Part shown: positions 35,140 through 38,458 of the stretch, piece after piece
How positions within the stretch are numbered: position 1 is the first letter of the stretch
Layout: the number at the start of each line of letters is the position of its first letter
DNA from: Salinivirgaceae bacterium
Lineage (GTDB): Bacteria > Bacteroidota > Bacteroidia > Bacteroidales > Salinivirgaceae
Direction of reading: 5' to 3'
DNA: 38,458 nt
Assembly (NCBI GenBank): GCA_027858775.1
Contig: JAQICA010000288.1
Coordinates: forward strand, 1 to 38,458
Made by a program: the position numbers and the translations under genes
Notes under the pieces: model-generated
The model's input: the letters and a program-made list of their open reading frames with translations, nothing else
What the model was told of the DNA's origin: nothing
Databases searched by the model: none

Positions 35140-35739
35140 ATGAGTTTCAAATTACCAGATTTACCTTACGATTTTGGCGCATTAGAGCCACATATTGATG
35201 CAAAGACCATGGAAATTCATCACGACAAACACCATGGCGGCTATACCACCAAACTAAATGCAGCAGTTGAGACAGAAAATATAAGCAGTAGTAACATTGA
35301 GGAAATATTAGCTAACGTATCCAAATACAGTACTGATGTAAGAAACAACGGAGGAGGCTACTATAATCACAATTTATTTTGGGAAATTTTAAATCCCAAC
35401 GGTGGCGGAAATCCGACAGGAGACTTAGGCAAAGCCATCGAAAGCACATTTGGTTCTTACGAAAAATTTAAAGATGAGTTTTCGAAAGCCGCAGCCTCGC
35501 GCTTCGGTTCCGGCTGGGCATGGTTAGTAAATGAAAACGGAAAACTAAAAATTGGAAGCACAGCCAACCAAGACAGCCCGCTTATGGACATTTCCGATTT
35601 TAAAGGAAAACCAATCATCGGTTTGGATGTTTGGGAGCATGCGTACTACTTAAAATACCAAAACAGAAGACCCGAATATATTGAAGCATTCTTCAATATT
35701 ATTAATTGGGAAAAGGCAAACGAACTATTTAAGGCATAA
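35140..35739 (+). CDS. sodA: superoxide dismutase, Mn-type features
   Basis: A 199-residue Fe/Mn superoxide dismutase that converts superoxide to oxygen and hydrogen peroxide. Metal ligands are His27 (EIHHDKHH), His77 (YYNHNLFW), Asp163 and His167 ([10 protein letters not shown]). The metal-discriminating second shell is Mn-like: a Gly-rich GGGYYNH in place of the Fe-type Gln-containing segment, and Gln144 in STANQDSPL, the MnSOD position. No signal peptide. It is followed 332 bases later by a second SOD with Fe-type residues. Metal use (Mn, Fe or both) cannot be fixed from sequence alone. Confidence 0.9.
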
Positions 35740-35802: not shown

Positions 35803-35959
35803 TAGTGCTTGCCCGAAAAGTCCAATTTCTGCGTTACGCCCTTTCTGAAAACAGTTATTTACGAAAGTAAACGCCTTAATTTTCAGAAAGGCCAAGCCTT
35901 GAACTTGAACTTTTCGAATCAAGCACTCAGAAAAGCAGAAAGTTTTTGTGCTGGCACTA
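35803..35959. repeat. MITE-like element between the two SOD genes
   Basis: A 157-bp element starting TAGTGCTTGCC and ending GTGCTGGCACTA, with TTTCTGCGTTACGCC and GAAAACAGTTATTTAC inside. Start and end match the 27753-27926 element, including the last ~28 bases. A related, inverted copy is at 36799-36963. Together with the terminator at 35998 it fills most of the gap between the SOD genes. Confidence 0.6.
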
Positions 35960-36071: not shown

Positions 36072-36647
36072 ATGTCATTTGAATTACCAAAATTACCGTA
36101 TGCTAACGATGCCTTAGCGCCACACATTAGTGAAAACACAATAAACTTTCACTATGGAAAACATCATAAGACCTATGTAGACAAACTCAATGGTTTAGTT
36201 AAAGGCACCGAATTTGAAAATGCAGATTTAGAAACGATCATCAAAAAAGCAGATGGCGGAGTTTTTAATAATGGTGCACAAGTGTGGAACCACACATTTT
36301 ATTTCGAAGCTTTAAGTCCAAAGGCAAAAGCCAAACCTGAGGGAAAACTTTTAGAGGCCGTTGAAAAAACCTTTGGAAGCTTCGATCAATTTATTGAAGA
36401 TTTCTCAAATGCCGGAGCTACATTATTCGGTTCCGGATGGGTGTGGCTTGTAAAAAATAGTGACGGAGCACTTGAAATAATGCAGGGAGCCAACGCCGAA
36501 AATCCAATCAAAGACGGCTATACGCCCATTTTAACAATGGATGTTTGGGAACATGCCTACTATTTGGATACCCAAAATGCACGTCCGAAATATATCGAAA
36601 ACTTTTTTAAAGTGCTCGATTGGCGTATAATCGAAAACCGTTTCTAA
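36072..36647 (+). CDS. sodB: superoxide dismutase, Fe-type features
   Basis: A 191-residue Fe/Mn superoxide dismutase, about 45% like its neighbour by eye. Ligands are His27 (NFHYGKHH), His74 (VWNHTFYF), Asp157 and His161 (MDVWEHAYY). It has Gln70 in NNGAQVWNH, the FeSOD position, and Ala142 in GANAENP where Mn-types carry Gln, so the second shell is Fe-like (or cambialistic). No signal peptide. Having both a Mn-like and an Fe-like enzyme side by side suggests use under different metal or oxygen conditions. A hairpin with T-run sits in its leader. Confidence 0.92.
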   Translation: MSFELPKLPYANDALAPHISENTINFHYGKHHKTYVDKLNGLVKGTEFENADLETIIKKADGGVFNNGAQVWNHTFYFEALSPKAKAKPEGKLLEAVEKTFGSFDQFIEDFSNAGATLFGSGWVWLVKNSDGALEIMQGANAENPIKDGYTPILTMDVWEHAYYLDTQNARPKYIENFFKVLDWRIIENRF

Positions 36648-36653
36648 TTTGTA

Positions 36654-36792
36654 TCCGTCAATAAACTCCATTTCCTGCGTTACTCTTACTCAAACCCGTA
36701 TCATTTACACCAGTAAACTTAACGGTTTTGAGTTTCGAAAGCCTTGGAAATGGAGCTTATTCACTGGATACTCCGACTTTATAGACAGGCTC
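36654..36792. repeat. ~140-bp imperfect-palindrome repeat, copy 1
   Basis: It starts TCCGTCAATAAACTCCATTT and ends CTCCGACTTTATAGACAGGC. About 90% identical to 37768-37907. The ends fold back: AATAAACTCCATTTCC pairs with GGAAATGGAGCTTATT, and inner CTCAAACCCG pairs with CGGTTTTGAG. It begins directly after the sodB stop. It belongs by its CTCCAT...GCGTTA core to the dispersed family. Confidence 0.85.
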
Positions 36793-37129: not shown

Positions 37130-37161
37130 TTTGGAGAAAGAATATTAATCGTTTATATTTG
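37130..37161 (+). promoter_or_regulatory. housekeeping promoter of small-RNA copy 1 (TTTG-N20-TATATTTG)
   Basis: TTTG at 37130-37133 and TATATTTG at 37154-37161 with exactly 20 bases between them match the Bacteroidota consensus at both boxes. The start of transcription would be at about 37166-37168, the exact base where the conserved RNA sequence begins. It has no -24/-12 element, unlike copies 2 and 3. Confidence 0.75.
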
Positions 37162-37165
37162 TCGT

Positions 37166-37268
37166 GCAACACCGTAGCCAACTTTCTACGGCAGCGGTCA
37201 ATTGCGAGGGGTAATATAAGCTGTTTTCATGACTTGTTTTTGGGGGTGGTCTTCGTGACCACCCTTTT
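37166..37268 (+). ncRNA. small RNA gene, copy 1 (~103 nt)
   Basis: The segment from GCAACACCGTAGCC to the T-run at 37265-37268 recurs at 38040-38143 with only two substitutions, and at 38406. Predicted structure: hairpin CCGTAG/CTACGG (37172-37177, 37186-37191), a CAGC...GCTG closing pair around an unpaired purine-rich GCGAGGGGTAATATAA segment, and a terminator GGGTGGTC-TTCGT-GACCACCC (37244-37264) then T4. There is no open frame shared by all copies with a start codon. Promoter start and terminator bound the conserved part exactly. I know of no named family for it; regulatory RNA is inference. Confidence 0.8.
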
Positions 37269-37411
37269 ACATTATAGAAAATCGACGCTGTGTTTCCATC
37301 TTGAAAAAGCCACAGCATACTCCTAATCTGGCACAAACGCCGCAGAATCTTTTTTCAACAAACGTTTTTTACTCGAAAAAGAATTACAAAAAAATAAAAT
37401 AACACTTCAAG

Positions 37412-37465
37412 CCCCTTTATTCATTAGATTAATTGACTAACAAAATCTGGACTAGCCTCCTTTTA
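37412..37465. repeat. diverged copy of the 5031-5084 block
   Basis: CCCCTTTATTCATTAGATTA and the following GACTAACAAAATCTGGACTA to CCTCCTTTTA follow the same order as the segment around 5031-5084 (CCGCTCTATTCAATAGATTT ... GAACAAGCCTCTTTTA), about 70-75% alike by eye. The flanking A-rich leads are also alike. Confidence 0.45.
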
Positions 37466-37767
37466 GGAGAAGTTCTATATTGAACAGAATAAACGATGCA
37501 ATTTAGATAACCTAACGGTTTTATCCGGAAGTAAATGATCCGGGGCAAGTTGTGAAAAAATGTACTTAAAGTGAATTTGTCAAGCATAGGGTTAAAACAC
37601 AATCAACCTTTCGCATTAAAAAGATCTTAACTATTCATGAGAAGCATTATCGTTCTTTCAATAATCTAAAGCTTTAAAAGACTTTCCATACTTCCATCCT
37701 ACAACTTCATGCTTACTTAATACGACATTTACCTACTGAAAAAACATAGGCACATTCAACCTAAATG

Positions 37768-37907
37768 TCCGTCAATAAACTCCATTTTCTACGTTACTCT
37801 TACTCAAACCCGCATCATTTACAATAGTAAAATCAACGGTTTTGAGTTTCGAAAGCCTTGAAAATGGAATTTATTCACTGGACACTCCGACTTTATGGAC
37901 AGGCTAA
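37768..37907. repeat. ~140-bp imperfect-palindrome repeat, copy 2
   Basis: Near copy of 36654-36792, from TCCGTCAATAAACTCCATTT to TTTATGGACAGGCTAAA. Arms ATAAACTCCATTTTC and GAAAATGGAATTTAT pair. It lies 270 bases before small-RNA copy 2, as copy 1 lies about 510 bases before small-RNA copy 1. Confidence 0.85.
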
Positions 37908-37997
37908 ATAAACATTACCCCAATACAAATAGTTTACGCAATATTAATATCAGAAAAAATAAATGATTGCACCAATTTCAGAATGCTAAATAACGAA

Positions 37998-38027
37998 AAA
38001 ACGATATCGTTTTGGCACAAGCTTTGC
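37998..38027 (+). promoter_or_regulatory. sigma-54 promoter and palindrome of small-RNA copy 2
   Basis: TTGGCAC-AAGCT-TTGC (38012-38027) is an almost perfect sigma-54 site: GG at 38014-38015 and GC at 38026-38027, 12 bases apart (consensus TGGCACg-N4-TTGC). The predicted start at about 38039-38040 is where the conserved RNA begins. A perfect 16-base palindrome AAAACGATATCGTTTT (37998-38013) abuts the -24 box and could bind a regulator. Confidence 0.88.
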
Positions 38028-38039
38028 TTTTATCTGGAT

Positions 38040-38143
38040 GCGACACCGCAGCCAACTTTCTACGGCAGCGGTCAATTGCGAGGGGTAATATAAGCTGTTT
38101 TCATGACTTGTTTTTGGGGGTGGTCTTCGTGACCACCCTTTTT
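38040..38143 (+). ncRNA. small RNA gene, copy 2 (~104 nt)
   Basis: GCGACACCGCAGCC to the T-run at 38139-38143. It differs from copy 1 at two bases only (A to G near the start, T to C in hairpin 1, which turns a T-A pair into a C-A mismatch). The terminator GGGTGGTC-TTCGT-GACCACCC at 38118-38138 is unchanged. Expression should depend on RpoN and an ATP-driven activator, as the promoter is of the -24/-12 kind. Confidence 0.82.
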
Positions 38144-38367
38144 CATTTAAAAAATCAGCACTCTATTTTACTACGGAAAAAACAGAAGCATACTCCCTCT
38201 TTCAAATCATTGCATACTAAACAATTATGATGTTAAACTCTTAAAAAAGATAGAGCCCTCGTGCCAAAAATATGCATTGAACTAATTCATAATAAATAGA
38301 TTACACGATATAAAAGTTAAATAATGACAAATTTTGCAAAAATTTCAGGATGATAAATAACTGAAGT

Positions 38368-38394
38368 ACGATATCGTTTTGGCACAAGCTTTGC
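38368..38394 (+). promoter_or_regulatory. sigma-54 promoter and palindrome of small-RNA copy 3
   Basis: TTGGCAC-AAGCT-TTGC again (38379-38394), identical to copy 2 through TTTTATCTGG. The palindrome upstream is shorter, ACGATATCGT at 38368-38377. A conserved block ATTTCAG(A/G)ATG.TAAATAAC lies farther upstream in both copies (about 37975-37994 and 38342-38361). Confidence 0.88.
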
Positions 38395-38405
38395 TTTTAT
38401 CTGGG

Positions 38406-38458
38406 TGCAACACCGCAGCCAACTTTCTACGGCAGCGGTCAATTGCGAGGGGTAATAT
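38406..38458 (+). ncRNA. small RNA gene, copy 3 (cut by the window end)
   Basis: GCAACACCGCAGCC through GGGGTAATAT: the first ~53 bases of the RNA, identical to the other copies apart from the two variable positions (A as in copy 1, C as in copy 2). The terminator half is outside the window. Its distance from copy 2 is 366 bases, against 874 between copies 1 and 2. Confidence 0.8.

Follow-up and report, generated by a model that had tools for sequence, protein, structure and literature searches.

The window, i.e., the whole stretch of 38,458 nucleotides analysed here, corresponds to contig C26 in the draft genome (G000, 4.25 Mb) of a Salinivirgaceae bacterium, and its last 1.8 kb, from the stop codon of the second of two superoxide dismutase (sod) genes (36647) to the window end, contains no open reading frame of at least 90 aa. 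Within this stretch, three copies of a predicted small RNA (sRNA) gene lie in tandem, the third being cut by the contig end (Table 1). An earlier note on this DNA had described near-identical units of about 103 nt in a gene-free stretch, differing at two positions, all of which was confirmed: repeat comparison of the window gave a unit size of about 104 nt, and copies 1 and 2 show two differences inside the transcript, at 37168 (A/G) and 37175 (T/C). Just upstream of the array, two adjacent genes encode Fe/Mn superoxide dismutase-like proteins (35140-35739 and 36072-36647).

Table 1. Predicted features of the sRNA array in the window.
Feature	Position	Strand	Basis or remark
sRNA gene copy 1	37165..37268	+	predicted transcript; repeat comparison; 124 bits with covariance model
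sRNA gene copy 2	38039..38143	+	repeat comparison, covariance model; terminator 38116-38143
sRNA gene copy 3	38406..38458	+	cut by contig end; covariance model
5' hairpin of copy 1	37166..37205	+	invariant closing helix GCAA/UUGC and covarying stem
48-nt block, invariant across the copies of three species	37198..37245	+	UCAAUUGC GAGGGGUAAUAUAAGCUGUUUUCAUGACUUGUUUUU GGGG
Mostly unpaired core, 36 nt	37206-37241	+	within 48-nt block
Intrinsic terminator of copy 1	37242..37268	+	sequence; fold
Sigma-A -7 box (Bacteroidota) of copy 1, TATATTTG (TAnnTTTG)	37154..37161	+	by eye; predicts start 37166
Sigma-54 -24/-12 promoter of copy 2, TGGCAC-N5-TTGCT	38013..38028	+	predicts start 38039
Sigma-54 -24/-12 promoter of copy 3	38380..38395	+	predicts start 38406

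The extension past position 38458, proposed in the earlier note as a way of counting copies, was found on contig C231 of the same genome, which starts inside a unit and shares an exact overlap of 36 nt with the end of C26. C231 carries the remainder of the cut copy at 1-92 and a further complete copy at 354-458, after which follows an amidohydrolase gene on the opposite strand. In the one-contig genome of a second member of the genus (G001), the gene order is sod, sod, a gene for a 1021-aa repeat protein, two units, amidohydrolase. Since the end of C26 (sod, sod, array) and C231 (array, amidohydrolase) fit this order, the array in G000 comprises at least three and probably four copies, and a collapsed repeat could hide more. 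The multiplied unit measures about 367-370 nt, each with its own predicted sigma-54 promoter; copies 2 and 4 are identical at 125 of 127 positions of sRNA plus promoter, and their spacers are 90% identical. The sod pair is adjacent in G001 as well (L103 16862-18226), and the protein encoded there between sod pair and array (L103:13359-16424, minus strand) is of secreted type and consists of near-identical long repeats; it is absent from this place in the genome of the window.

The copies had been said to start exactly at predicted promoters, which was borne out for copies 2 and 3 by perfect sigma-54 sites and was refined for copy 1, where a -7 box was recognised by eye. Before copies 2, 3 and 4 the sequence reads TTGGCAC-N5-TTGCTTT, and the T of a conserved TGC(A/G)AC follows exactly 12 nt after the C of TTGC. 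The core of this site occurs twice in the window as compared to 0.04 expected occurrences, and the 19-base site with zero mismatches is found three times in the whole genome, in every case preceding one of copies 2-4. Both units of G001 possess a degenerate version in the same register, TTTTGGTA...TTTG(C/T)TT (TTTTGG...TTG[CT]TT). In the aligned upstream sequences, a recognisable sigma-54 site is absent before copy 1 and before the single copy of the third genome of the genus (G002), the latter having TATTTTTG where copy 1 has the box TATATTTG, and a sigma-70 scanner detected no excess of sites in the array region. In a study of Flavobacterium psychrophilum, the TAnnTTTG box is placed at -12 to -5 (PMC9723704); with this spacing the start of copy 1 and the sigma-54 start are no more than one base apart, so that in these alignments promoters of two types seem to direct transcription from one and the same first base. 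A palindrome, ACGATATCGT, lies directly upstream of the -24 box of copies 2-4 (window ~38001-38010 and ~38368-38377; L123 ~310-330) and is possibly a regulator site; it was not seen in G001.

The machinery for sigma-54-dependent transcription is encoded in these bacteria: each of six genomes of the family has RpoN, and each of the three genomes of the genus has enhancer-binding proteins, five with the full domain in G000 and five in G001. No enhancer-binding protein gene adjoins the array. The RNA chaperone Hfq (PF17209) was detected in none of six genomes of the family and in each of five control genomes, in agreement with the earlier remark that the phylum mostly lacks it.

Copies 1 and 2 both end in a GGGTGGTC/GACCACCC stem followed by a T-run, as expected of the intrinsic terminators noticed earlier; that of copy 2 was flagged by a consensus scanner (38116-38140), and in copy 1 an identical stem is followed by a run of four T. 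Each of the RNAs folds better than its shuffled sequences (z -2.3 to -4.7). The sequence of the 5' stem differs among the units while its pairing is kept, with compensatory changes in six of eight pairs, as counted from five sequences spanning saturated divergence; pairing was found in 96.6% of cells as compared to 17-41% when the partner was slid by 1-3 columns. In copy 2 the closing helix is GCGA/UUGC, in which the G-U also preserves pairing. The degree of divergence was estimated from the neighbouring amidohydrolase, the proteins of which are 61-65% identical among the three genomes of the genus and the four-fold degenerate sites of which are 24-33% identical, a value that indicates saturation. 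Despite this, 48 contiguous nucleotides are invariant in all units, 36 of them mostly unpaired, in line with the invariant and mostly unpaired segment described before. An invariant block at saturation together with compensatory changes in the hairpin constitutes strong evidence that the locus encodes a functional RNA on the plus strand, the transcript being predicted. Moreover, the locus displays, as predicted from the sequence, the features of an independently transcribed, structured sRNA, namely its own promoter, its own terminator, no open reading frame and a conserved covarying structure.

Attenuators, too, have a hairpin ahead of a terminator, and the unit might accordingly be read as a cis-regulatory leader or attenuator that controls a gene downstream of it. 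However, several complete units stand in a row and each is followed by the next unit or by a convergent gene, so that there is no gene to control, and we regard this explanation as scarcely credible. The unit is also very unlikely to be a type I toxin-antitoxin pair or to code for a small peptide, whether MTCFWGWSS in the sense direction or MKTAYITPRN in the antisense direction. It is true that the invariant block contains a minus-strand frame of 10 codons in a start-like context (ATG AAA ACA GCT TAT ATT ACC CCT CGC AAT TGA), and type I toxin-antitoxin systems include tandem arrays. However, the peptide is not hydrophobic, one G is lost in one of the G001 copies, which alters the sense frame, and frames on both strands were rejected because all codon positions are fully identical and the identity extends beyond the frame, while promoter, terminator and covarying hairpin all lie on the plus strand.

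The unit is present in both other genomes of the genus, twice in G001 and once in G002, and adjoins the same amidohydrolase gene in all three. Outside the genus, BLAST searches of 57 other genomes of the order gave no genuine match, a covariance model gave no convincing match in 393 genomes of the order, and in the sister genus the RNA is absent from the place beside the amidohydrolase gene. Six weak matches of the model within the order (27-31 bits) were rejected as starts of protein genes, chance folds or terminators. An exact scan across GTDB with a 19-base degenerate core recovered one member of the genus only (the contig of G002 itself, titled Salinivirgaceae bacterium), the remainder being unrelated, i.e., a match in Halobacillus and two Bacteroidales small-protein starts (MKRTYITP...). 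No Rfam family scored above the gathering score in the window, and a relaxed threshold (E up to 5) yielded only chance matches, which upholds the statement that no named RNA family has this sequence. Judged by its sequence, this is thus a real and undescribed sRNA family absent from Rfam; on the strength of the null searches outside the genus it is confined, as far as tested, to one genus of Salinivirgaceae, and diverged relatives that share structure only could be missed.

An imperfectly palindromic repeat of about 134 nt adjoins the copies (36657-36790 and 37771-37904), which might suggest that the units belong to a mobile or repetitive element and are not RNA genes. This is hardly conceivable, since G001 and G002 both have the RNA and lack the repeat, which was rejected as carrier of the RNA on this ground; furthermore, the repeats are spaced 1114 nt apart as compared to 874 nt for the RNA copies, the RNA occupies one syntenic place only, and viral contigs, plasmids and phages gave no match to it. 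Homologues in transposon ends or in protein genes, the finding that would have spoken against an RNA gene, were looked for, and those recovered are neither. The repeat itself has more than 40 matches in G000 (47 matching pieces) with a partial relative near 35817. It was found neither in the other two species of the genus nor in G003; by its distribution it appears as a MITE-like or REP-like element special to the species of the window.

We consider it probable that the locus is a tandem array of trans-acting sRNA genes of about 104 nt which together form a sigma-54-induced, multicopy antisense regulator on the plan of the Qrr RNAs of Vibrio, without belonging to these. Following this, we propose that an enhancer-binding protein would respond to a signal and, jointly with RpoN, turn on several copies together to give a fast and high dose, that the housekeeping-type promoter of copy 1 would provide a basal level, and that the 5' hairpin, of which only the pairing is conserved, may shield the 5' end of the RNA. 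The regulatory role would be exerted by the core, the purine-rich part of which may be the target-binding segment; probably starting from the G-rich GCGAGGGGUAAU, it could base-pair close to the translation starts of several mRNAs and repress them without Hfq, perhaps helped by an RNA-binding protein of the RRM type as in Bacteroides. There, GibS and FopS act by base-pairing at translation starts together with an RRM protein (PMC11697453).

Read in reverse complement, the core includes AAAAACAAGTCATGAAAACAGC, a sequence that resembles a translation start. The core complement AAACAAGTCATGAAAACAGC likewise has the look of a translation start and gave no credible target in the three genomes of the genus; two matches at start codons in other families (G031, G046) were dismissed as chance. 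A second core segment, TTATATTACCCCTCGC, had no match at a start codon in the genomes searched. The array itself aside, complements of the two segments were about as frequent as the reversed control, and the near matches examined included no credible site at a start codon. Pairing of the core with 278 translation starts of G001, taken from a 400-kb sample of its sequence, was no better than that of shuffles (mean -13.3 as compared to -13.1 ± 0.45 kcal/mol). A short Bacteroidales gene, MKRTYITPQAESG..., has a start that is identical to the core complement at 26 of 30 positions (L037:6449-6474, L038:4801-4826), a likeness which probably reflects common codon usage at small-protein starts and is a hint at the kind of target.

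As no target stood above chance, some room is left for a multicopy decoy that binds a protein at the invariant core, like CsrB/RsmZ or the sigma-54-driven CrcZ of Pseudomonas. An invariant block of 48 nt would suit a protein site as well as pairing, and several gene copies would raise the dose. However, no short motif is repeated within one RNA, unlike in the decoys CsrB and CrcZ, size and plan match those of base-pairing sRNAs, and Hfq, which CrcZ sequesters, was not detected; taken together, a decoy seems unlikely. Should base-pairing by co-induced copies be correct, the array would be a case of convergence in which multicopy sRNAs under sigma-54 are used without Hfq, and the signal sensed via sigma-54 in such bacteria would become testable. 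To our knowledge, few sRNAs have been characterised in Bacteroidota and none is known under sigma-54; the present family is tractable, since its synteny is fixed, its sigma-54 sites are perfect, its invariant core can be mutated and one sister genome is assembled as a single contig.

The Qrr RNAs of Vibrio regulate quorum sensing, are driven by sigma-54 and phosphorylated LuxO, pair with luxR/hapR mRNA and need the chaperone Hfq. The resemblance to their layout that had been noted from the window holds and includes the sigma-54 promoters of copies 2-4 (degenerate in both G001 copies, and not found for copy 1 or in G002): several near-identical genes of about 100 nt, a 5' hairpin, an invariant core between hairpin and intrinsic terminator. 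By contrast, no match to Qrr was obtained from Rfam at E up to 5, the core sequence is unrelated, the sequence of the 5' hairpin is not conserved, the copies stand in tandem whereas qrr genes are scattered, no enhancer-binding protein gene lies next to the array, and without detectable Hfq in the family dependence on this chaperone is not indicated. Whether a Qrr-like circuit of co-induced sRNA copies, RpoN and an enhancer-binding protein arose independently in Bacteroidota and works without Hfq is, in our estimate, evenly balanced. GlmY and CrcZ are also sRNA genes under RpoN and an enhancer-binding protein; they are proteobacterial and act with Hfq or RapZ, and the comparison of sequence with them was through Rfam only. 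The core of Qrr comprises 32 nt and pairs with several mRNAs (PMC4211561).

Within the same order, FopS and GibS of Bacteroides share with the present family multiple paralogous copies, an unpaired conserved segment, a Rho-independent terminator and a lineage without Hfq (PMC11697453). They differ in that FopS is transcribed from sigma-ABfr promoters, leaves its 5' end single-stranded and reaches 12-15 copies per genome (PMC11697453), whereas the present genes have sigma-54 promoters and stand in tandem; the 5' end of the present RNA folds as a hairpin, where FopS and GibS carry the R1 seed in single-stranded form. Binding by the RRM-type protein RbpB is a further mark of FopS and GibS. FopS was deposited in Rfam (PMC11697453), and the lack of an Rfam match to FopS or GibS bears on FopS only if its model is in the Rfam copy used. 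Rfp18 of F. psychrophilum, likened here by description only, is likewise a conserved structured Bacteroidota sRNA with a regulatory phenotype; in excerpts from that study, sigma-54 (-24/-12) promoters were mapped and neither a multicopy array nor sigma-54 control is reported for Rfp18 (PMC9723704). The sRNA is a member of neither Qrr nor FopS; as read from the genomes compared, the array belongs to a new RNA family and has a Qrr-resembling layout that arose in a lineage of Bacteroidales in which Hfq was not detected.
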